Of a stretch of 64,000 bases of DNA, positions 4,508 through 14,793 are shown piece after piece. A program made the position numbers and the translations under genes. Numbering within the stretch: the stretch's first letter is position 1; each line of letters starts with the position of its first letter. Origin of the DNA: Tessaracoccus sp. MC1679 (GTDB lineage: Bacteria; Actinomycetota; Actinomycetes; Propionibacteriales; Propionibacteriaceae); NCBI RefSeq assembly GCF_014164775.1, contig NZ_JACJGB010000005.1, forward strand, positions 186,001 to 250,000, in the 5' to 3' direction. Below the pieces are notes generated by a model. That model ran no database searches and was not told where the DNA came from. It saw only the letters and a program-made list of their open reading frames with translations.

Positions 4508-6133
4508 TCAGCCCAGGGCGGCCCACGTCTGCGGGCCCACGACGCCGTCGGCCGATAGCCCGTTGCTGCGCTGGAAACTCCGCACCTGGGACTCGGTTCC
4601 CGGGCCGAACTGGCCGTCCGCGGTGAGCCAATAGCCGTGGTCCGACAGCCGTTGCTGCAGGTACTTCACGTGCTCACCAGTGGACCCGCGACGCAGCGTC
4701 GGCCGGGTTTGGGTCTGAGTGCCGCCGCCCTGGTTGCCGGAGCCGCCGGAGTTGCCGCCCCAGCCGCCGCTGTTGCCGCCGCCCTGGTTGCCAGAGCCGC
4801 CCGACGGGTCGCCCCAGCCGCCACTGCTCCCTCCGCCCTGGTTCCCCGAGTTGCCGCCACCACTGCCTCCGCCCTGGTTGCCTGATCCACCGGACGGATC
4901 GCTCCAGCCACCGTTCCAGCCGCCCGAGTTGCCACCGCCGGAGTTGCCGCCACTGGGCTCCTCCCAACCGCCCGAGCCGCCTGATCCGCCGCCTGATCCG
5001 CCGCCCGAGACGCCTTCAAGGGCCGCCCACGTGGCCGGGCCGACCACCCCGTCCACCGTCAAGCCGTGCGAGCTCTGGAAGCCGCGGACCGCATTGGCCG
5101 TGGCCGGGCCGAACTGTCCGTCCACGCTCAACCAGGCGCCCCCGTCGACCAGCTTCTGCTGCAGGTAGCGCACGTCCTCCCCGCTGTCGCCTTGGCGCAG
5201 CGTCCGCCGCGACGTCCCCGTCTCGGGCTCGCCCCAGCCGCCCGGATCCACCGGCACCGAGGCCGCCGGGGCGGTGAGGGTGAAGGGCCGCTGCGCCTGG
5301 AACGCCGCCGAAACCGTGCCGACGGTGTAGAAGTTGGGCGTCTGATCCATCGGCATCCTGCGCACGATCGCCGAGTGGAACGAGCGGTAATCGCCCGAGA
5401 ACGACGCATTTGCCCACACCCGCAGCAGCGTCTCTGTGAACAGTCCGTTGACGTCCCCGTCGCTGGACAGCTGGTTGTCCTGGCAGCCGGAGATGAGGAT
5501 CAGCTCCGCCGCGATGTCCGTGCTCCGCGTGCTCCCCGCGACAGTCTTGGCGACGGCGTACAGCTCCCGGCGGCGTGCCGAGTCGGCCGCCGCGACACTC
5601 GGTGCCATCATGCGCGGCTGCAGCTTCGGCACGTGCACATCCGTGGGCCAGTACTCTTCGCCCAGCGGGTTGCGCAGCAGCGCTTCGCGGGTGGCGATGG
5701 CCAGGATGCTGCGCGCCACGGTGCCCGAGTGGCAGGAGTCGGACAGCACCACGATCCGCACCCCGGAGCGGAACTGGGACCACTTGAGGTACAGCTCGTC
5801 GTCGAGGACCTGCCTGTCGTACAGGCACCAGGTTTCGTCGAGCCCGTCGTCCTCGTCGCCGGTGTTGTCGCGGATCTGGCCGCCGTGGCCCGAGAAGCTG
5901 ACGAACGCGATGTCCCCGTCGACGGCGGTGTTAGCCAAGCTGTCCAGGGCGCTGAGCAGCGCTGTGGAGGTGGCCTGCGCATCGAGCAGCTTCCGGGTGC
6001 GGAACCCCTCCCCGGAGGCAAGGGCCTCCATGTCGTTGGCGTCGTTGACGCACCCCGCGAGCACGGTGGGCGCCGGGATGTAGCTGGAGGTGTCTACCAC
6101 GTTGAGTCCGACGTGGAGCGAGTAACCGGTCAT
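4508..6133 (-). CDS. Caspase-fold (C14) protease with two peptidoglycan-binding domains
   Basis: A 541-residue protein. Residues 1 to about 270 form a metacaspase-like p20 domain with catalytic His83 (SFSGHGGQ), Cys134 (SDSCHSGT) and the acidic loop GDEDDGLDETW. Residues 312-372 and 480-541 are two PG_binding_1 domains (DGQFGP..., DGVVGPATWAAL). They are joined by a linker of about 107 residues (373-479) that is nearly all Gly, Ser, Asn, Gln and Trp. ATG 6133 is chosen over upstream starts because AAAGGAC precedes it. No signal peptide or membrane segment is visible, which is odd for a wall-binding module. It is the last gene of the sigma-CHAT-caspase operon. Probable targets are unknown; neighbours in the operon are candidates. 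Confidence 0.85.
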   Translation of the reverse strand: MTGYSLHVGLNVVDTSSYIPAPTVLAGCVNDANDMEALASGEGFRTRKLLDAQATSTALLSALDSLANTAVDGDIAFVSFSGHGGQIRDNTGDEDDGLDETWCLYDRQVLDDELYLKWSQFRSGVRIVVLSDSCHSGTVARSILAIATREALLRNPLGEEYWPTDVHVPKLQPRMMAPSVAAADSARRRELYAVAKTVAGSTRSTDIAAELILISGCQDNQLSSDGDVNGLFTETLLRVWANASFSGDYRSFHSAIVRRMPMDQTPNFYTVGTVSAAFQAQRPFTLTAPAASVPVDPGGWGEPETGTSRRTLRQGDSGEDVRYLQQKLVDGGAWLSVDGQFGPATANAVRGFQSSHGLTVDGVVGPATWAALEGVSGGGSGGGSGGSGGWEEPSGGNSGGGNSGGWNGGWSDPSGGSGNQGGGSGGGNSGNQGGGSSGGWGDPSGGSGNQGGGNSGGWGGNSGGSGNQGGGTQTQTRPTLRRGSTGEHVKYLQQRLSDHGYWLTADGQFGPGTESQVRSFQRSNGLSADGVVGPQTWAALG

Positions 6134-6161
6134 GGAAGTGTCCTTTCGGATGGTGCGTGGT

Positions 6162-8714
6162 TCACTGCGGAACGGGGGTGGAGAGGGGGATGAGCACGCC
6201 ACGGGTGCGCACCGGCCAGTCGACAGGCGGCGCCGCGGTCCGGGTGCCGTCGGTGCCCACCGCGGTGACGGTGAACCTCACGGCGGGATCGGTGGCATAG
6301 GTGGTCAGCGGGAGGACGAACTGACGCTCTGCCTGGCGCTGGGTGTGGGTGACGGTCACCGGGTCCGCGGCGGCGCCCAGCAACGTGGCCGCCACCTCCA
6401 ACCCCGCGACACCCGTCAGATCTCCGGTGGCCACGAACGTGACGCCCAGGTGGAGATCCTCGATGTAGCTGCGGGTCTCGTCGAGGCTCTCGGTGCCGGG
6501 CTCGACGGTGTGGTCCAGCGCAAGCAGACCCACCGTCCCCGGCGGCAGGGGCACTGTGGTCTGCTGCCCAGCGGTGAGGAGCAGCGACGGCGTGGCCACG
6601 ACGGCGCCGTCGGCCACCACCCGGTTGACCGCCACGCGCCGGTCCAGCCGGTTGGTCAGCCGCACCTCGTCCCCCGTCCGCTCCGCGGTGACCGGCCCCC
6701 CGGCCGGTCCGACGACGCGGCTCAGGTCCAGCCGCAGGGTGCTCACCGCGCTGTCGCCGCCGGGAATGGCGTAGCGGGCGGAGCCCACGAGCCCGCCGCG
6801 CTGCAGCAGGGTCCTCAGCGTGAGCAGGCCGGGAATGTCGGTGGTCAGCATGAAGGTGAAGCCGGTGTCGATGGGCACGCAGTCCGCGCGGTCCGAGCCC
6901 GGCACCGCCCAGCTCACCTCGGGTGCCACCCCCGCCTGCCAGGGGCCGACGAGCTCGACCGGTCGGCCGAGGCGCTGGCGGAGCTCACCGGCGAGGAGAG
7001 CGAAGTCCGCCGCGTCCGGCTCGGGCTCCAGCGCTGCCGCCAGCACGCAGCGGATGTTGGCCGGGTTCTCCACGTCGATGGTGGAGGTGAGCAGCAGCGT
7101 GGGCTCATAGGCCCGGTCAGGGTCTTCGGCCGGGTAGCGACCAACCGCGTAGTTCTCGGGGATGACCAGGAACCTGCCCGGCTGGGTCAACGAACGGAAG
7201 ACCCTGACGCCCGCGACCGTGACGGGTTCCGGCTGCCACGGCCGGTACTGCGTCTCGCCCAGGCGGAGAGCGGGCCGGCAGCCGACGGCCTCCCATCCGT
7301 CGCCGGCGCGCTGTCGGTACAGCTGCGGGTGGTCGGCGCACGGCAGAAGGGCGGGGAGCCTGGTGGTGGCGGTGGCACTGATCTTCACGTGCCTGACTAC
7401 GCCCAGCTGTGCCAGGTCGAACTTCTCGAGGGCGATCGCCGGCGTCAGGCGGATCTCCGCCTTGGCCATGGCAAGCAGCTGCGTGGCCGCGATCGGGCGG
7501 GTGGCGTCGTCGCGGCGCCGCAGCGCCATCAGCTTCGGCGCGGTGAGACGGTCCACGGTGAGCCTCGACGGCGTCCGCTCCGCCCGCCAGCCGCTGTGCG
7601 CCAGGCCCACCTCGACGACGGCGGGCTCCGCCTGGAACCCCGGCGTCGACAGCGCACCGTAGGCGAGGCGGGCCCAGTTGTTCTGCAGCACGAAGGTGGC
7701 GGTGATTCTCGAGCCGACCTCGCCGAGCACCCCGCTCACCACCGCCGAGTTCGCGGTGACCAGCTCGGTGCGGGCGGCGCCGTCGTCGTCCCGGAAGGGC
7801 AGGTGCAGCCCCACCTGCGGCACGCACGGCACAGGCTTCAGCGGAGGCCTTCCCCCGCTCTCCCAGGGTGCGAGTGTGGCGGCGGAGGGGCGGGCGAGCA
7901 GGGTCACCACCACGGTGGCCTCCAGCGCGGGGGAGCCGTCGGCCTGATGCCCGACCTGCGCCAGATCGAACCGGAAGGGAGAGGAGTCCGGGTCCTGTCC
8001 CGGGGCGGGGACGTCGAGCACGATCTCGGGCAGGTACCAGCGGTCCTCGCCCCGCCGGTCCGCCAACAACGGCCTGCCGTCCAGCACCGGCCCGGTCTCC
8101 TGGGGTGCCAGGGGCGTGGACAACACCAGATTCTCGGCCAGGAGCGGCCGGATCACGGCGGGTTGCGGGCGGATGACCTGCATCAGGGGGACCGCCTCGT
8201 TCCGGCGCATCATCAGCAGCTCACGGCCGGGGCCTCTGGTCCTGGTGCTGCGTGCGGGAAAGACGTCCCCCACGACGCCGCCCTCGGCGGTGACCAGGTG
8301 CACGACCTGCTCGGGGGCGGCCCCGAGCAGGGGAACGATGAGGTCGGCCACCGGCCGCCGCCACTGCCCCGACATGCCGTCGGTCCGCCGGGCCCGGATC
8401 ACCAGGTCCGGGCCCCCGCCGCCGCCCGCCAGCGCCGCGAGGAGCCCGCGGGCATCGTCGCCGGCGAAGGTGGCGGCCAGCGCCGCCGCCCCGAACGGAC
8501 CCCGCGACTCGGCGCGCACCGGCTCGGCCACCTGCAGCGTGAACTCCACCCAGGCGAGGTCATCCAGCGTGCAGCGGAGGTCCAGGGCAAGCGTCGCCGT
8601 CATCACCAGGCCCGCTATGGGCTCGTGGGGCGCCGGTCTCCGGCTGAGGAGGAACGTGACCGAGCACGCCGGCGCGCCGGAGGGGTCGCGCCGGATCTCG
8701 GCGATGCTGGCCAT
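6162..8714 (-). CDS. Unrecognised 850-residue beta-rich protein of the sigma-CHAT-caspase cluster
   Basis: I do not recognise a family. The sequence is dominated by alternating hydrophobic strands (for example LEATVVVTLLARP, RFTVTAVGTDGT), with few helices and no signal peptide, membrane segment or catalytic motif that I can name. Repeated segments of the form strand-VxVT-loop-strand suggest several beta-sandwich domains. The last ~90 residues (LTGVAGLEVAATLL to LIPLSTPVP) resemble in pattern the beta-sandwich before the tail of the adjacent 739-residue protein. The ATG has GAGGTC ahead of it, 9 bp after the upstream gene, and the caspase gene follows 28 bp downstream. Co-expression with two proteases makes it a candidate substrate, inhibitor or effector. 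Confidence 0.6.
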   Translation of the reverse strand: MASIAEIRRDPSGAPACSVTFLLSRRPAPHEPIAGLVMTATLALDLRCTLDDLAWVEFTLQVAEPVRAESRGPFGAAALAATFAGDDARGLLAALAGGGGGPDLVIRARRTDGMSGQWRRPVADLIVPLLGAAPEQVVHLVTAEGGVVGDVFPARSTRTRGPGRELLMMRRNEAVPLMQVIRPQPAVIRPLLAENLVLSTPLAPQETGPVLDGRPLLADRRGEDRWYLPEIVLDVPAPGQDPDSSPFRFDLAQVGHQADGSPALEATVVVTLLARPSAATLAPWESGGRPPLKPVPCVPQVGLHLPFRDDDGAARTELVTANSAVVSGVLGEVGSRITATFVLQNNWARLAYGALSTPGFQAEPAVVEVGLAHSGWRAERTPSRLTVDRLTAPKLMALRRRDDATRPIAATQLLAMAKAEIRLTPAIALEKFDLAQLGVVRHVKISATATTRLPALLPCADHPQLYRQRAGDGWEAVGCRPALRLGETQYRPWQPEPVTVAGVRVFRSLTQPGRFLVIPENYAVGRYPAEDPDRAYEPTLLLTSTIDVENPANIRCVLAAALEPEPDAADFALLAGELRQRLGRPVELVGPWQAGVAPEVSWAVPGSDRADCVPIDTGFTFMLTTDIPGLLTLRTLLQRGGLVGSARYAIPGGDSAVSTLRLDLSRVVGPAGGPVTAERTGDEVRLTNRLDRRVAVNRVVADGAVVATPSLLLTAGQQTTVPLPPGTVGLLALDHTVEPGTESLDETRSYIEDLHLGVTFVATGDLTGVAGLEVAATLLGAAADPVTVTHTQRQAERQFVLPLTTYATDPAVRFTVTAVGTDGTRTAAPPVDWPVRTRGVLIPLSTPVPQ

Positions 8715-8723
8715 GGCCAGACC

Positions 8724-10943
8724 TCACAACGGGTAGGACAGGAACGAGGTGGGCGTGCCTCCGGCCGACCGCCTCACCGGCTCGGCCTCCGTCTCGTGGG
8801 CCTCCGGGGAGTAGCCCTCCGCGGCGTACTCCTCGGCGTCGTACCCGACGGCGGTGGTAGCTGCGGCCGCGACCACCTCGCGGGTCGACGGGGCGGCAAG
8901 CTCGCGCAAGCGGCGGACCCGGTCGTCGGACAGGGAGCGAGTCACCACGCCGTCGGCGTCCGGCGCAGGCACCTCGACGATCAGCGGGCCGTTGCCGTTG
9001 GCCGTGACCCATGGGCCGGTCCACGTCTGCCCCTTGCGGAACAAGGTGCCCTTGACGGTGGCCGTGACCTGGTAGCGGTAGTAGGGCAGCAGCTGCGGGT
9101 CGCCGGAGAAGATCGTCCAACTGCGGTCCTCGTCCACGTCCTCGAAGCCCCACCGGAAGCGCACGGGCGCCAGCCCGATCGGCTTGTAGTCCGCGTCCGT
9201 GGCCTCCATCACCACCTCGACGGTCTGCGAGCGGTCCTCCAGCATCACGCCCAGGCCGATGGGGCCCACCGCCACCCGGCCCGCGTTGTCGGCGCGGACC
9301 TCGAGCGTGGTGTCGTTGAGCAGTGTGCCGTTGGGCTCCGGGTCGAGGTCGATCACGTTGCGCTCGATCTGCACCCGGTGGAACGGATCCAGAGCCTCAC
9401 TGGGCGGCTCGGCCAGGTGGACCTTGCGCTTGACGTAGGTGAGGTCCGGCGTCCAGCCCGAGGGCGGGTTGTTGACGTCGCCGGCCACCTTCTTGGCGGT
9501 CTGGAACTTCCACGTGGGGTCGTTGCCGTCCGCACCGGAGAAGCTGTGTCCCTGCCAGTTGAGCTCGCCCCCGGTGTTGGGATAGCCGATCTGCACCGAC
9601 ATGAACTGCACCGTCTTGTCCTCCCAGCTCGCCACGGGGCGGACCACGCGCGCCAGCCGCTGCGGCCAGTCGTCCAGGTAGACGGTGAGGAAGTACTTGC
9701 GCTCGGCCTCGGGATCGCCCTTGATCTCGTCACCCATCCCGGCCAGCGAGCTGGAGATCGTGTGGTCCTGCAGGTAGGCGAACTGCCTGGTCTCCTCGTA
9801 GTGGAGGTCCAGGTGGCTCTCGTCGCGGCGGTACTTCAGCGACAGCCCAACCCCCCACGGCGACCAGAACGAGCCGCCCGAGGACGCCTGCGCGGCGTCA
9901 ACCTTGGGCTGCGGCTGCTCGAAGATGGTCTTCTGCGCCATCTCCATGAACTTGTTGAACACCAGATCCGAGCGCTCGTCCATCTTCCGCGCGATCTCGT
10001 CGGCGCCCGGCAGCGTCGTGTCCACCTTCACGTCGACCTTGATGGCCCCGGACTTGCGCATGTTGTTGAACTCGGCCTGCGCGTCCACCTTGGCCCACAG
10101 GTAGCGGCCCGACGCCGCGGCCGAGAAGTGCGTGAACACCGAGTCCCAGTTGCCGTCGATCTTGATGGTGCACACCGGTGACCAGACCTTCAGCTTGTAG
10201 TTCTGGATCACGATCAGCGGGCTGGCCGTGCCGTGGAACGCCGCCCACGCGATGTTGGCCGGGTAGACCCCCAGCAGGCCCGAGAAGGCGTGCGTGCCGG
10301 TGGGGTCGATGGAGCCGCTGCCCTGGCCCTGCATCATGCAGTACCACGGGTCAAGGTTGTTGTCCCTGGACGGGGTGGCGCCGGGCTCCGGGTCCCGGGT
10401 CAGCGCCCGGTTGCCTGGCATGCCGACGGTGCGGAACCCCCGGGTGCGGCCGCCGCGGGTGGGTTGGTCCGCCGTCGGGAACCCGGTGGGGGTGGGCGAC
10501 ATGTTGGACACCGATGTGATGGTCTGCGCGATCACCGCGGGCCGGAACATCGGAGGCTTGCGGGCGTTCTTGATGCCCCAGAACGCGTCAGTACTGGTGC
10601 TCATCTTGGCCGTGATGTCGGCCTCGGCCTGCCGCCTGGTCTGCTCGGGGAGCGCGCCCGTCACCGAGAACGTCATGATGCCGCCGGCCACGTCCCCGCC
10701 GCCGCCGATCACGCCCTCGCCGCCGGTGCCGGAGAAGCGCACCAGGTTGAACAGGTAGTCGCCCTTGTCCGGGCCGTCCTTGCGGGCCATCCGGATCCGG
10801 TTGGGCACGTAGTAGAAGACCGGGGCCTCGCCCTGGGCGATCAGCTCGTGGTTGTTGACGTCGGGCAGGTAGAGCACGTCGTACCCGTCCTTGGTGATGG
10901 GTTGGGTGCCGCCGGCGTAGGTGGGACCCATTGCCTGGACCAT
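8724..10943 (-). CDS. Unrecognised 739-residue protein of the sigma-CHAT-caspase cluster
   Basis: No family recognised. The N-terminus has YDVLYLPDVNNHELI and FYYVPNRIRMARKDG. A Gly-rich stretch follows at about residues 70-90 (FSGTGGEGVIGGGGDVAGG) and then an amphipathic helical segment (EQTRRQAEADITAKMS). The middle holds WYCMMQGQGSG and an acidic/basic helical region (EIARKMDERSDLVFNKFMEMAQ). The C-terminal third is beta-rich and ends in a disordered Ala/Glu/Tyr tail (GYDAEEYAAEGYSPEAHETEAEP). No signal peptide is visible. The ATG at 10943 has GAGGAAGG at good spacing. The gene has its own copy of the 34-bp motif upstream, so it can probably be induced separately. A glycine-rich plus amphipathic region could suit membrane insertion, but that is speculative. 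Confidence 0.6.
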   Translation of the reverse strand: MVQAMGPTYAGGTQPITKDGYDVLYLPDVNNHELIAQGEAPVFYYVPNRIRMARKDGPDKGDYLFNLVRFSGTGGEGVIGGGGDVAGGIMTFSVTGALPEQTRRQAEADITAKMSTSTDAFWGIKNARKPPMFRPAVIAQTITSVSNMSPTPTGFPTADQPTRGGRTRGFRTVGMPGNRALTRDPEPGATPSRDNNLDPWYCMMQGQGSGSIDPTGTHAFSGLLGVYPANIAWAAFHGTASPLIVIQNYKLKVWSPVCTIKIDGNWDSVFTHFSAAASGRYLWAKVDAQAEFNNMRKSGAIKVDVKVDTTLPGADEIARKMDERSDLVFNKFMEMAQKTIFEQPQPKVDAAQASSGGSFWSPWGVGLSLKYRRDESHLDLHYEETRQFAYLQDHTISSSLAGMGDEIKGDPEAERKYFLTVYLDDWPQRLARVVRPVASWEDKTVQFMSVQIGYPNTGGELNWQGHSFSGADGNDPTWKFQTAKKVAGDVNNPPSGWTPDLTYVKRKVHLAEPPSEALDPFHRVQIERNVIDLDPEPNGTLLNDTTLEVRADNAGRVAVGPIGLGVMLEDRSQTVEVVMEATDADYKPIGLAPVRFRWGFEDVDEDRSWTIFSGDPQLLPYYRYQVTATVKGTLFRKGQTWTGPWVTANGNGPLIVEVPAPDADGVVTRSLSDDRVRRLRELAAPSTREVVAAAATTAVGYDAEEYAAEGYSPEAHETEAEPVRRSAGGTPTSFLSYPL

Positions 10944-10993
10944 GGTTGCGCCTTCCTCGTCGAGTCTCCGATGCGCACTGCACCGTCACAGAC

Positions 10994-11027
10994 ACAGGAG
11001 CCCGCGGGCGGCCCGGTGATACGTCAG
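10994..11027 (-). promoter_or_regulatory. Copy 1 of a 34-bp cluster-specific promoter/operator motif
   Basis: Minus-strand sequence CTGACGTATCA, 14 bp, GGCTCCTGT. It matches the copy at 14721-14754 in both conserved blocks with the same 14-bp spacing, while the spacer itself is diverged. It sits 50 bp before the ATG of the 739-residue gene, in the 80-bp gap after the CHAT gene. The two blocks are spaced like -35/-10 elements of an ECF-type promoter. Confidence 0.6.
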
Positions 11028-13444
11028 ACGGTGGCGCGCCACGGAGCGCCGAAGCACACGAAGGCGCCCGCGCTCGCGTCGCCGACGGTGGCGCGGGCCA
11101 GCGCGGTGGCGGCGTCGACGCCGCCACAGAGCTCGGCGTGGTAGGCGGCCATCACGGCGGCGGCCAGCTGGTCCCCGATCGGCGCGACGGGGGCCACCAC
11201 GCAGGAGGCTCCGGCCGACAGCAGTGTCGCGGTGAGACCCAGCGGCTGATCGCCGGGCCGATGGGTGGCGCGCCCCACCTCGCAGGCCGACAGCACCACA
11301 TGGCTGGCCCGCATCTCCAGGCCCTCCAGCTCGTGCGCGAACACCGGACCGCCGGCCAGCAGGAGGCTGGAGAACTGAGGGTTGTCGCCGCGGTGCTCGC
11401 CGTGGGCGGCCACGTGGACCAGGTCATCGCCCGCCAGCGCATCGCTGAGGTCGGGCGTCTGCACCAGCGGCCAGCACCCCGCGACGGACTGCCGCTCCTC
11501 AGCCGCGAACGGCAGTCCGGGGCCGGTCAGCACGCTGACGCGCGGCCGGTGCACCACCCGGCCGGAGCTCGCCCAGCTCGACGCGGTGGGTGCCACCGTG
11601 ACGGCTCGGCCGCGCAACTGGGGCAGGGCCAACCACGGCACTCCTGACAGGACGCGGGTGGGCACCACGACGAGCTGCCCGGGCAGATCCGCCAGCGGCG
11701 CCGCCACCAGGTCCCCCAGCGCGGCCAGGCGCGCCGCCAGCGACGCCGCGACAGCCCCGGCCAGCGGGTGCGCCGGATGCATGTTCGCGCGCGCCGTGAG
11801 GTCCGCCCTGGCGGCCTCCACCAACTCGGCTGCCAGTTCGGCCGACCCGAGGCTGATGGTGCGATCCGGGCCGTCGCCCAGCACGACGGCCCTCAGCTCG
11901 TCGCCCCAGCGGAGCGTCACCACGAGGCTGCATCCCTGCTCCTCGGCGGCGCTGCGCAGCGTGGCCGAACGGAGAACGACGACGGTGGGGGGCGGTTTCG
12001 TCACGGCCCCCCAGGTGAGCGCCCGGAGCTCCCGCTCGGCCCCGACGACGGCGCGCGCGGCCTCCTCTGCGTCGGCTGCCCCGGGGTCGAACGCGGCGCG
12101 AAGGCGGCGCAGCTCGGAGGCGGCCTCCTGCACCCGCTGGTCCGGTCCCACCCTCAGCCGCGGCGTGGGCCGGGTGGCGGCCCGCCACCGCTCCGCCGCC
12201 TCCACCACGGCCGACGGGCCCCTCGAGTCGGCGAGCTCCAGGTCCAGAGCCGCCGCAGCCTCGCCGTGCAGGGCGGTCGCGGTGCGCAGGTCCAGGCTGG
12301 CCAGGCCCAGCTGGGCGTGCACCAGGGTGGCGTTGGCCCGCCTCAGCACCCGCCGTGCCTCCTCGTCGTCCCCCCGCCGGGAGGCGGCGGTGGCCAGCGC
12401 CACCAATCCGGCCAGCCGCAGCGAGACCACCGGCGAGCGCGACAGCCACGCGACGTCCGGGATCAGGTCCGCGACCTCTGCCGGCCGCCCGGAGGCAGCG
12501 CGCAGCCCGGCCGCCGCGGCCTGGGCCGCCACGAACCGGTCGCCGTCGGCGCTCGCCGCCTCCCACAGCGCCCGGGCCGCGGACAGGCGCGGCCGCGACA
12601 TCAGCTGGCAGAGCACGGCCCGACGGTGCCAGCCCGGCTCGCCCCGCCGTCGGAACACCTGGGCCGCGGCACGGCTGCGGGTCAGCGCCTCGTCCGAGCG
12701 GCCGAGCAGGAGGGCGCACCTGGCCAGGTCAAGGTCCACCTCGGAAGCCTGCTGCGCCCCGGGCTGGCCGGCGCGTGCCAGGAGCAGGAGGTCGTAGGCC
12801 TCGGACACCAGGCCCGCCTCCATCAGGGCTCGTGCGCGGTCCTGTCGGGCGACGGAGCGGTCCAGGGTGACGCTCAGGGCGTCCGCGTCGTGCATGTGGC
12901 GAAGCGCGGCGGGGAGATCCCCGCGCAGGAACCGGATCCAGCCCAGGTTGTGCCGGGCCATGAACGACACTGGCGCCACGCCCAGCTCGTCGGCCAGCGC
13001 CGCCGCGGACGTCAGGTCGGCGGCGGCCTCCTCGAAGCGCTGCAGCTCGGAGGCGATGGTGCCGCGGTTGAGCAGCAGCCGCATCCGGTCAGGCGGCGGA
13101 AGGAAGTCCTCGTCCAGGCCGGCCAGCGCGCGCCAGGCCGCCGGCCGGTCCCCGGCTCGGGCCAGGAGAGTCCCTGCCTGGACGTCCGCGGCGCAGGCGA
13201 TCTGGGGGAGTCCCTGGGCGAGGGCTTCGGCGGCCGCGGCGCGCAGCTCCTCCAACGCCGGCGAGGTGCCCCGCTCCTCGAAGGTGACCCAGGCGGACGA
13301 GATCCGGATCCGGAGCGCCAACTCGACCTCCGAGGCGTCGCAGGCGGCCGCCGCCCGCGCCAACAGCGCAGCCCCCTCTGCCGTGCGATGCTCCGCGAGC
13401 GTCGCACGGGCCGAGTCGTAGAGCTGCTGCGCGGACCGGGTCAC
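11024..13444 (-). CDS. TPR-like/CHAT-domain protease
   Basis: An 806-residue protein. Residues 1 to about 430 are Ala/Leu/Arg-rich helical repeats with TPR-like spacing (RFEEAAADLTSAAALADELG; GDLPAALRHMHDADAL). Residues ~480-806 are a CHAT domain, a caspase-fold cysteine protease, with His681 (DLVHVAAHGEH) and Cys721 (HVVLSACEVG). Both catalytic residues are intact. The GTG start abuts the stop of the upstream gene, with GAGGTG in that junction. In known systems (separase-like CHAT, type III-E CRISPR TPR-CHAT) the helical repeats sense a partner and license cleavage. Here the partner and substrate are unknown. The cytosolic location is inferred from the lack of a signal peptide. Confidence 0.9.
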   Translation of the reverse strand: MTRSAQQLYDSARATLAEHRTAEGAALLARAAAACDASEVELALRIRISSAWVTFEERGTSPALEELRAAAAEALAQGLPQIACAADVQAGTLLARAGDRPAAWRALAGLDEDFLPPPDRMRLLLNRGTIASELQRFEEAAADLTSAAALADELGVAPVSFMARHNLGWIRFLRGDLPAALRHMHDADALSVTLDRSVARQDRARALMEAGLVSEAYDLLLLARAGQPGAQQASEVDLDLARCALLLGRSDEALTRSRAAAQVFRRRGEPGWHRRAVLCQLMSRPRLSAARALWEAASADGDRFVAAQAAAAGLRAASGRPAEVADLIPDVAWLSRSPVVSLRLAGLVALATAASRRGDDEEARRVLRRANATLVHAQLGLASLDLRTATALHGEAAAALDLELADSRGPSAVVEAAERWRAATRPTPRLRVGPDQRVQEAASELRRLRAAFDPGAADAEEAARAVVGAERELRALTWGAVTKPPPTVVVLRSATLRSAAEEQGCSLVVTLRWGDELRAVVLGDGPDRTISLGSAELAAELVEAARADLTARANMHPAHPLAGAVAASLAARLAALGDLVAAPLADLPGQLVVVPTRVLSGVPWLALPQLRGRAVTVAPTASSWASSGRVVHRPRVSVLTGPGLPFAAEERQSVAGCWPLVQTPDLSDALAGDDLVHVAAHGEHRGDNPQFSSLLLAGGPVFAHELEGLEMRASHVVLSACEVGRATHRPGDQPLGLTATLLSAGASCVVAPVAPIGDQLAAAVMAAYHAELCGGVDAATALARATVGDASAGAFVCFGAPWRATV

Positions 13445-13921
13445 CTACACCTCGATGGTGGGAGTGATGACGGGCCGCTGGTCGGGGCGGCCGGGGCGGA
13501 TGAGGAAGCGCAGCTGGCCGTGCGGCACCAGCGGCCAGGTGAGCCGTCCCGTGGCGTCCGAGACCTGCAGGTCTATCGTGTCGGCAGTCCTGGCCTCCAC
13601 GCCCACCCCGCCGCCGGTGACCCAGCCGTCCACCCGGACCCCGCCGTCGGTCTCGCTCAGCACCACCATCAGGCTCAGGCTGGAGGCGGTGAACGTGAGC
13701 GTGTCGGTCACCGCGGGGTCCAGCCCCCTGGCGCCCGCCCGCTCCTGCTGGCTCAGGGAGGCGAGCTCGGCGTCCATCAGCTCCAGCGACACCGCGAACG
13801 AGACCCGTTCCGCCAGGCCGACCGGCGGCGGATCGAACCGGGCCTGGGCGGCGGCGACGGCGGCGAGCAGGTCATCGTCGCCGGCGTCGAGCGGCCGGAG
13901 GGCGTCGTCGTGAGGGGTCAT
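13445..13921 (-). CDS. Small beta-domain protein between the sigma factor and CHAT protease
   Basis: A 158-residue protein. The N-terminal half is helical and acidic (DDDLLAAVAAAQARFDPPPVGLAERVSFAVSLELMDAELASL). The C-terminal half is a small beta domain (LSLMVVLSETDGGVRVDGWVTGGG...DLQVSDATGRLTWPLVPHGQLRFLIRP), resembling a carboxypeptidase-regulatory-like or SpaA-like sandwich. There is no transmembrane segment, so it is not a classical membrane anti-sigma factor. Its ATG overlaps the sigma stop (ATGA) and its TAG abuts the CHAT GTG. That position between sigma and protease suggests a regulatory link, possibly a soluble anti-sigma. This is inference from position only. Confidence 0.6.
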   Translation of the reverse strand: MTPHDDALRPLDAGDDDLLAAVAAAQARFDPPPVGLAERVSFAVSLELMDAELASLSQQERAGARGLDPAVTDTLTFTASSLSLMVVLSETDGGVRVDGWVTGGGVGVEARTADTIDLQVSDATGRLTWPLVPHGQLRFLIRPGRPDQRPVITPTIEV

Positions 13922-14481
13922 GCAGGGCTCCAGGCGGGATCGGAGGCCAGCGAGCGGCGCAGCGTGGCCAGGCATCGCCCCCGGGTGGGGCCGATGGAGC
14001 CGACAGGCATGCCGAGCGCGGCGGAAATGGTGGCGTAGTCGGGTCTGGTGGAGAAGGCGATGACGCGCAGCAGGGCTTGGCAGCGCGGGCTCAGCGCGTG
14101 GATGTGGGTCCACAGCCGCCGGTTGAGGTCCTCGGACTCGGCGATGGCCTCGGGTGTGGGTTCGGGGGCGACGGTGGACTCGGGGAGTTCGAGCTCCGGC
14201 GGCACGCGGGCGATGCGCCACGCCTCCCTGCGGGTGGTGGTGAGCAGCCACGCGAACACCGCCTGCGGCTCGGCGATCGATCCGGCGCTGCGCACCAGCG
14301 CCAGCCAGGAGGACTGGACCACGTCCTCTGCCTGGGAGTGGCTGAGCCCTGACGAGCGCGCCACAGCCCACAGCGGTGGGGTGAGCAGCTCCACCAGGTC
14401 CGCGAGGCGCGACGAGTCGCCCTCGCGGTAGCCGCGGAAGGCCTCGGCAGCCCGGCTGGACAGCGACTCCGCCGAGGTCAT
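13918..14481 (-). CDS. ECF-like RNA polymerase sigma factor
   Basis: A 187-residue two-domain sigma-70 family protein. The region 2 pattern is AFRGYREGDSSRLADLVELLTPPLWAVARSSGLSHSQAEDVVQSSWLAL, then the region 2.3/2.4-like FAWLLTTTRREAWRIAR. Region 4 is the helix-turn-helix LSPRCQALLRVIAFSTRPDYATISAALGMPVGSIGPTRGRCLATLRR. ATG 14481 is chosen because it overlaps the stop of the upstream small gene (ATGA) and begins just before region 2; the open frame continues to 14724 without family similarity. No anti-sigma with a membrane segment is adjacent. The 34-bp motif repeated at 14721 and 10994 is its likely target. Confidence 0.88.
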   Translation of the reverse strand: MTSAESLSSRAAEAFRGYREGDSSRLADLVELLTPPLWAVARSSGLSHSQAEDVVQSSWLALVRSAGSIAEPQAVFAWLLTTTRREAWRIARVPPELELPESTVAPEPTPEAIAESEDLNRRLWTHIHALSPRCQALLRVIAFSTRPDYATISAALGMPVGSIGPTRGRCLATLRRSLASDPAWSPA

Positions 14482-14681
14482 GGCGCCCGACCGGCCGAAG
14501 GTGCCGTCGTCACCACCAGCCGAGGGGCCCCCGTCCGCTCCGAGCCGTGGAACGGCATCGGCACGTAGTAGGGCATCGGGACGTAGTAGGGCAGCGGCAC
14601 GTAGTACGGCTGGGGCGCGTAGGACGCGCGCTGGCGGGGGGATGGTGGGGCGTCGAGGATGCAGGGCTGTGACGGTGACAC
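14478..14681 (-). CDS. Small Tyr/Pro repeat peptide, first gene of the sigma-CHAT-caspase operon
   Basis: A 67-residue ORF from GTG 14681, which has a strong Shine-Dalgarno sequence (GGAGGAG) 5 bp upstream. Its TGA overlaps the sigma ATG (ATGA), so translation is probably coupled. The middle is a tandem repeat: three PYYVP(L/M) units plus an imperfect first (SYAPQ) and last (PMPFHG) unit. The flanks are low complexity (APPSPRQ; APSAGRAP). No signal peptide or membrane segment is visible. I know no function. Possible roles are translational control of sigma, a partner-binding repeat or a protease substrate. Confidence 0.6.
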   Translation of the reverse strand: MSPSQPCILDAPPSPRQRASYAPQPYYVPLPYYVPMPYYVPMPFHGSERTGAPRLVVTTAPSAGRAP

Positions 14682-14720
14682 CGGTACTCCTCCGGGGACG
14701 GTTGAAACGGACGTCACCGG

Positions 14721-14754
14721 ACAAGAGCCGACGGCCGCCCTCCTGATACCTCAG
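14721..14754 (-). promoter_or_regulatory. Copy 2 of the 34-bp cluster-specific promoter/operator motif
   Basis: Minus-strand CTGAGGTATCA, 14 bp, GGCTCTTGT. It lies 39 bp before the GTG of the small Tyr/Pro gene, so it would drive the whole operon. It has the same two blocks and spacing as 10994-11027. Presence upstream of the sigma factor itself suggests autoregulation. Confidence 0.6.
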
Positions 14755-14793
14755 TGTCTCCGCTGAAGGCCCACAGTGGAAGGACCGGCTTCC

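Follow-up and report, generated by a model that had tools for sequence, protein, structure and literature searches.

Seven co-directional open reading frames, all on the minus strand, occupy positions 4508-14749 of the window (the whole 64 kb stretch of DNA analysed here) and form two modules (Table 1). In the order of transcription they encode a Tyr/Pro peptide, an ECF sigma factor, a small protein, a TPR-CHAT protein, two large proteins referred to here as p739 and p850, and a C14 protease; the first-pass annotation had listed seven such genes at about this place, and all were recovered. Recurrence of the gene order in related genomes (see below) goes beyond chance. Housekeeping genes flank the operon: gatA and gatB at one end, and at the other trpE, trpC, trpB and a member of the TIGR03085 family. 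When six of the operon proteins (Tyr/Pro peptide omitted) were scanned with PADLOC, the sole match was to the C14 domain (PDLC02987, E 7e-10), and the operon as a set matched no known anti-phage defence system in PADLOC. Hydropathy revealed no clear signal or membrane segment in the seven proteins (peaks 0.68-1.69 over 19 residues, the highest being a borderline stretch inside the CHAT domain).

Table 1. Genes and promoter-like elements of the operon, listed in the direction of transcription.
Feature	Position in window	Strand	Remarks
Promoter-like element P1	14722..14749	-	GTATCA-N16-CTCTTG, upstream of Tyr/Pro peptide and sigma gene
Tyr/Pro (PYYV-repeat) peptide, ~67 aa	14478..14681	-	predicted start codon
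ECF sigma factor, 187 aa	13918..14481	-	ECF54-type, assigned by gene context
Small protein, 158 aa	13445..13921	-	N-terminal part and probable CarboxypepD_reg-like beta domain; candidate sigma regulator
TPR-CHAT protease, 806 aa	11024..13444	-	His681/Cys721
Promoter-like element P2	10995..11022	-	GTATCA-N16-CTCCTG, upstream of p739
p739, beta-rich, unnamed family	8724..10943	-	Ig/FnIII-like domains within ~428-669
p850, multi-beta-domain, unnamed family	6162..8714	-	directly after p739
C14 metacaspase-like protease, 541 aa from ATG at 6133	4508..6133	-	two PG_binding_1 domains; His83/Cys134

The ECF-like character of the sigma factor, proposed earlier, was borne out by TIGR02937 (43.9 bits, cut-off 42.9) and Sigma70_r2 (E 6e-7). 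Both caspase-fold proteases of the first-pass annotation were likewise found with intact catalytic dyads, the TPR-CHAT protein matching PF12770 (E 2.6e-21; His681/Cys721) and the C14 protein PF00656 (E 1e-20; His83/Cys134, counted from the ATG at 6133). The small protein of the window had no Pfam match. One of seven members of its family that were scanned (L073) matched CarboxypepD_reg (PF13620, E 4e-4, below the curated cut-off), and this weak match fits the 'carboxypeptidase' that belongs to the genomic context of group ECF54. In the available text of PMC8999054, which cites the classification of Casas-Pastor et al. 2021, ECF54 sigma factors lack a canonical anti-sigma factor, lie near subtilase, carboxypeptidase and CHAT domains, and are proposed to be under proteolytic control, a proposal made there without a named target. 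The window operon contains the ECF-type sigma factor and the CHAT protein and no subtilase. Genes for the small-protein family were found at 65 places in 60 of 197 actinomycete genomes. Twenty of these neighbourhoods were fetched, and in 13 of them S8 subtilase, sigma, small protein and CHAT occurred jointly; the remaining seven (L074, L075, L077-L080 and L086, all family f21) had sigma and small protein, with no CHAT or S8 subtilase within the 13 kb fetched. Judged by gene content, the sigma-small protein-CHAT part of the operon matches the predicted proteolysis-controlled ECF54 context and is a variant of that predicted kind.

The variant differs from the ECF54 context as described in that the subtilase is missing and a PYYV peptide is left instead. 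An S8 subtilase was present in four of the seven loci that combine sigma with the p739-p850-protease triad (L021, L022, L023 and L025), and these S8 genes bear 3-5 PYY repeats; in the window and in L019, only a short peptide with PYY repeats remains before the sigma gene. Because the repeats are common to the S8 genes of the relatives and to the peptide, the latter is probably the remnant of the S8 subtilase gene that holds this position in relatives. Its full open reading frame spans 14478-14717, and the GTG at 14681, 40 bp from the 3' end of P1, is the more likely start because of the position of the promoter-like element. The idea that the C14 protease is a simple substitute for the subtilase was rejected, since L021, L022, L023 and L025 have both.

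It had been suggested that the operon resembles the type III-E CRISPR protease set in its logic. In function the likeness holds: as in the Csx29/Csx30/CASP-sigma system, a TPR-CHAT protease is encoded together with an ECF sigma factor, and the intermediate protein could be a cleaved sigma inhibitor (PMC10028731, as far as its available text goes). In membership it does not. In favour of the operon being a type III-E remnant or relative are the TPR-CHAT and sigma genes and the weak match of the CHAT protein to the Csx29 model NF041237, which at 14.8 bits is far under the cut-off of 300; against it, RAMP-family proteins (PF03787) had 0 matches in the window genome, the sigma and CHAT genes are part of a widespread actinobacterial module, and the window adds a C14 output operon. 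Such an origin is therefore extremely improbable. No Rfam match was obtained in the 64 kb window, with Rfam covering only some CRISPR repeat types.

Reading the intergenic DNA by eye revealed a promoter-like element, GTATCA-N16/17-CTCYTG, ahead of the sigma operon and a second time between the CHAT gene and p739. No promoter motif is given for ECF54 in the available text of PMC8999054, whereas a promoter-like one can be defined for the window operon, which moreover differs from the context described there by a second promoter-like element before the two unnamed large proteins and the C14 protease. The window has 2 matches to the element (0.02 expected), and the window genome (3.57 Mb) holds 3 exact copies, 2 of them in the operon. 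In the relatives, among them T. lapidicaptus with 2 exact copies, both in the operon, the counts were 2 for L019 (2 in the operon), 2 for L020 (2), 2 for L021 (1), 2 for L022 (1) and 3 for L023 (2). The six sigma-bearing genomes to which these whole-genome counts apply (window and L019-L023; L025 was covered by locus alone) thus contain 14 exact matches, 10 in the operon, compared with 2 for a reversed control pattern. When spacings of 8-25 were scanned in the seven loci (for the window, its first 16 kb), only 16 or 17 occurred, all on the operon strand. On the p739 side, six of the seven loci have an exact copy whose end is 49-60 bp ahead of the p739 start (51 bp, measured from the 3' end of P2, in the window), and L025 has an exact copy 273 bp before the start and a one-mismatch copy ~50 bp before it. 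On the side of the sigma operon, the copy is exact in the window, L019, L020 and L023 and carries one mismatch in L021 and L022; none was found at up to one mismatch in L025.

The element was derived by eye from these same loci; its whole-genome scarcity is partly independent of the derivation, and the fully independent test is provided by the small-protein places in other genomes. A same-strand element lies within 3 kb upstream of 9 of the 65 small-protein places (8 of 64 without the window genome), compared with a chance expectation of ~0.01, assuming 5 Mb average genomes. The distances cluster at 642-828 bp, approximately the sigma start, and at 2252-2356 bp, approximately the S8-sigma start, with one at 996 bp. 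The other 56 places have no exact element within 3 kb upstream, two of them having a copy at 6.9 kb. Exact copies were absent from the seven Microbispora loci, and six triad-only genomes had 4 exact matches in total, 0 of them within the triad loci that were fetched; before p739 of L027, a copy with one mismatch sits where one would be expected. Across the 197 genomes of the class, ~106 element matches were counted manually against ~69 for the reversed control, so most single matches are background. With two mismatches allowed, the window genome gave 44 element matches against 102 for the control; the meaning of the element is therefore confined to exact or near-exact copies, and looser patterns were discarded. 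The third exact copy in the window genome (G000:C13:294482-294509, minus strand), which is outside the window, is ~172 bp before a DUF2278 gene (293669-294310). It may be there by chance; a conserved third target was rejected because the DUF2278 genes in 11 other genomes among the 197 searched have no exact element nearby. At the level of sequence, these results are good evidence that the element belongs to the ECF54-type sigma family and that the triad in this clade has been placed under it. We infer that the sigma factor reads the element, and it probably drives both its own operon and the triad.

The C14 protein carries, in addition to the protease domain, two PG_binding_1 domains that the first-pass annotation had not mentioned. 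Its C14 domain (query residues 26-309) aligned with GSU0716 of Geobacter (PDB 3bij) at E 4e-72, which places the two in the same domain family; the solved chain (285 residues), however, ends at the C14 domain, whereas the window protease also has PG_binding_1 domains. In alignments the C28-x-x-D31 and D-S-C motifs are kept, and both are likewise present in 3bij and the solved metacaspase-1 chain 4f6o. With a His/Cys dyad and, close to the active site, conserved acidic residues, the C14 protein has the sequence marks of a metacaspase. A caspase-fold protease is also the common feature with EACC1/EACC2, and many EACC2 loci include an ECF sigma factor and a TPR protein, according to the available text of PMC7159879 and PMC8195603. 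In contrast to these systems, the window C14 protein reached only 18.9 bits against the EACC1-caspase model NF047832 (cut-off 140), and neither EAD nor NTPase appeared in the Pfam results of the window operon.

The two large proteins, of 739 and 850 residues, had been described as unplaceable, and so they remained: neither had a match in Pfam or PHROGs with the limit at E 1, in NCBIfam at E 0.1 or in PADLOC at E 0.01. Sequence comparison with solved structures gave no match for p739 at E up to 1 and for p850 only matches at E 0.24-0.76. Structure prediction, which had been recommended for both, yielded beta-rich, multi-domain AlphaFold2 models of middling confidence; the structural matches were limited to Ig/FnIII-like single domains. 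A common origin of p739 and p850 was considered and dropped, as the profile-profile comparison was not significant; one weak pairwise match linked the p850 of L032 with the p739 of L041 (E 2e-4, 37-sequence set). The p739 model has a low-confidence loop at ~151-212 and a low-confidence C-terminal tail ending in FLSYPL. Of 23 aligned rows, 16 have a loop (window residues 150-206) of 53-86 aa, and the seven Microbispora rows, in whose loci no caspase was found, have one of 34 aa; the Microbispora rows are also without the N-terminal domain and linker of p850. Loop length may thus track the presence of the caspase, a hint qualified by Microbispora being one clade. The tail is poorly conserved up to its tip (window 8724-8900). 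The tip itself (FLSYPL/YLDYDL type, two FRNYQV) was conserved in all 13 caspase-linked actinobacterial p739s, that of the window included, and absent from Microbispora, Phycisphaerales, Tenacibaculum, the gamma MAG and Deinococcus; it looks like a docking motif. Metacaspases are expected to cleave after Arg/Lys. Cleavable basic linkers (p739 ~151-212, p850 ~145-204) are likewise no more than a hint, since K/R residues are not clearly denser there than in p739 and p850 as a whole.

Checking whether the genes co-occur and move together had also been recommended. Scanning a five-row p739 alignment against the genome collection returned 22 loci. In all 22, from four phyla, p850 directly follows p739 (in L030, which stops near a contig edge, only part of p850 is present), and the same triad was found on a Deinococcus plasmid. 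A C14 protease comes next in 13 of the 22 (L019-L029, L031 and L038). Of the other nine, L032 has an S8 subtilase instead of C14, the seven Microbispora loci showed no C14 by tblastn, and L030 is the locus at the contig edge. The pair in the distantly related L016 has a papain with PG_binding_1 as its neighbour. The protease neighbouring p739-p850 therefore varies between C14, S8 and papain. Pfam confirmed an S8 subtilase next to sigma in L014 (identical in place with L040) and in L033, the two Microbispora loci examined for it. The gene directly before p739 in L014 (8404-9669), where a caspase was not found, contains four hemopexin stretches and, by eye, a lysozyme-like C-terminal part. Beside the triad on the Deinococcus taeanensis plasmid L041 (1-1880, 12617-14515) are a divergent BTAD regulator and, ~13 kb off, an annotated TPR-CHAT gene.

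Sigma and CHAT accompany the triad in seven loci (window, L019-L023 and L025) and are also present, in a different arrangement, in the seven Microbispora loci. At E up to 1e-4, tblastn detected neither in the fetched triad flanks of Nocardioides, Arthrobacter, Ruania, Tenacibaculum and the Deinococcus plasmid. The genes thus co-occur and move, although not as one block of seven, several triads being without sigma and CHAT. These last loci would suit the view that an ECF54 module and an unrelated triad are merely adjacent in the window. Against this, the order is the same in seven loci, the promoter-like element precedes p739 in 7/7 of them, and pairwise distances correlate between the gene families at 0.84-0.996 (uncorrected for phylogeny); chance neighbourhood is accordingly very unlikely.

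In the class the large proteins are rare: p739 was found by profile in 6 of 394 genomes (7 with a single-sequence search, one of these read as spurious), and p850 in 4 of 394, with p739 adjacent in 4/4. In the p739 tree, the rows from Planctomycetota, Bacteroidota, the Deinococcus plasmid and a gammaproteobacterial MAG fall on the side of the window (42-51% identity to it), while the actinobacterial Microbispora (34-35%) are set apart by a branch. This points to horizontal transfer, with several branches long and their positions unsure. A phage or virus origin was rejected, as the searched phage records and viral contigs contained no p739 relative and no PHROG was matched. No description of the triad or of its two protein families was found in the open-licence literature searched.

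Our best explanation, to which we give a probability of roughly 0.5, is that the locus is a self-contained two-promoter protease operon in which an ECF54-type sigma relay would control a p739-p850-metacaspase output. It builds on gene sets, catalytic residues, adjacency and a promoter-like element, scarce in the genome, that can be read directly from the DNA. At rest the ECF54-type sigma factor would be kept inactive. The TPR-CHAT protease would cleave, or sense through, the small protein with its carboxypeptidase-regulatory-like domain, and sigma would be freed; this relay is proposed by analogy with Csx29-Csx30-CASP-sigma (in the available text of PMC10028731) and with the ECF54 proposal. 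Freed sigma would transcribe its own operon from P1, as feedback, and p739-p850-metacaspase from P2, as output, and little else in the genome. As dedicated partners of the adjacent protease, p739 and p850 may serve as scaffold and/or substrate. The output would then be a burst of metacaspase with wall-binding domains and two large partners acting on the cell, an action we infer from the protease partnership; most likely it serves cell fate or a conflict response. The interpretation of the first-pass annotation is in this way partly supported: its proteolysis-controlled transcription switch is backed by the ECF54-type context and by the shared promoter-like element that ties sigma to the triad, and its cell-death or defence role is a possibility. 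Besides the limits of the element given above, the following count against our explanation: triads occur without sigma and CHAT in several genera, 7 of 20 small-protein loci have sigma and no CHAT or S8, and the C14 protein shows by hydropathy no membrane-type hydrophobic stretch despite its wall-binding domains.

The same proteins could instead form an envelope-stress or lysis device, in which p739, p850 and the PG-binding protease are an exported or lysis-released wall assembly for envelope processing or wall remodelling and not for cell fate. PG_binding_1 on the C14 protein and on the L016 papain, the Ig/FnIII-like partial fold matches of p739 and p850, and the hemopexin-domain gene before p739 in Microbispora would all fit. 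The hydropathy of the seven proteins, however, speaks against export, and metacaspases are mostly described as cytosolic; we regard an envelope role as somewhat unlikely. More doubtful is a polymorphic delivery or toxin scaffold, with p739-family proteins as structural carriers of enzymatic cargo and the protease as one such cargo. It draws on tandem arrays of distant p739 relatives on a Pararhizobium plasmid (L098, 423-17487) and on a Paracoccus plasmid (L099, 5414-30843), the latter with trypsins, an EAD1 protein, a STAND-type ATPase, a phospholipase D-like protein and a tyrosinase, and looking like a larger conflict locus. The lack of p739 matches in the viral sequences searched, and of both p739 and p850 in PHROGs, weighs against delivery.

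Returning to the two-promoter operon under sigma control, a broader reading is possible, which we put forward tentatively: p739-p850 may represent a new class of protease-partnered machine, coupled across phyla with proteases of three or more unrelated classes (C14 metacaspase, S8 subtilase and, in a distant relative, C1 papain), which in this clade would be the main output of the ECF54 sigma relay, and hence an inducible caspase pathway with its own transcription factor. ECF54-type modules are widespread, as judged by the small-protein marker, and an element with two or three exact copies per genome (six sigma-bearing genomes) makes sigma, regulators and output directly testable. Its output, in which a metacaspase is joined by two large proteins whose unnamed families span several phyla, would open a new way into bacterial protease-driven cell fate, and the cluster can be tested as a candidate inducible system of cell fate or defence.

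Two further observations concern relatives of the proteases. In the Microbispora CHAT genes (L033-L037, L039 and L040), the His motif was found by pattern in 6/7 and the usual LS(A/S)CxxG Cys motif in 0/7, and these proteins may have a different active site. On rhizobial plasmids (L092 6950-10843, Sinorhizobium meliloti pSymA; L093 8957-15897, Rhizobium leguminosarum), relatives of the C14 domain have genes for C1 or C25 peptidase, chitosanase and murein transpeptidase as neighbours.
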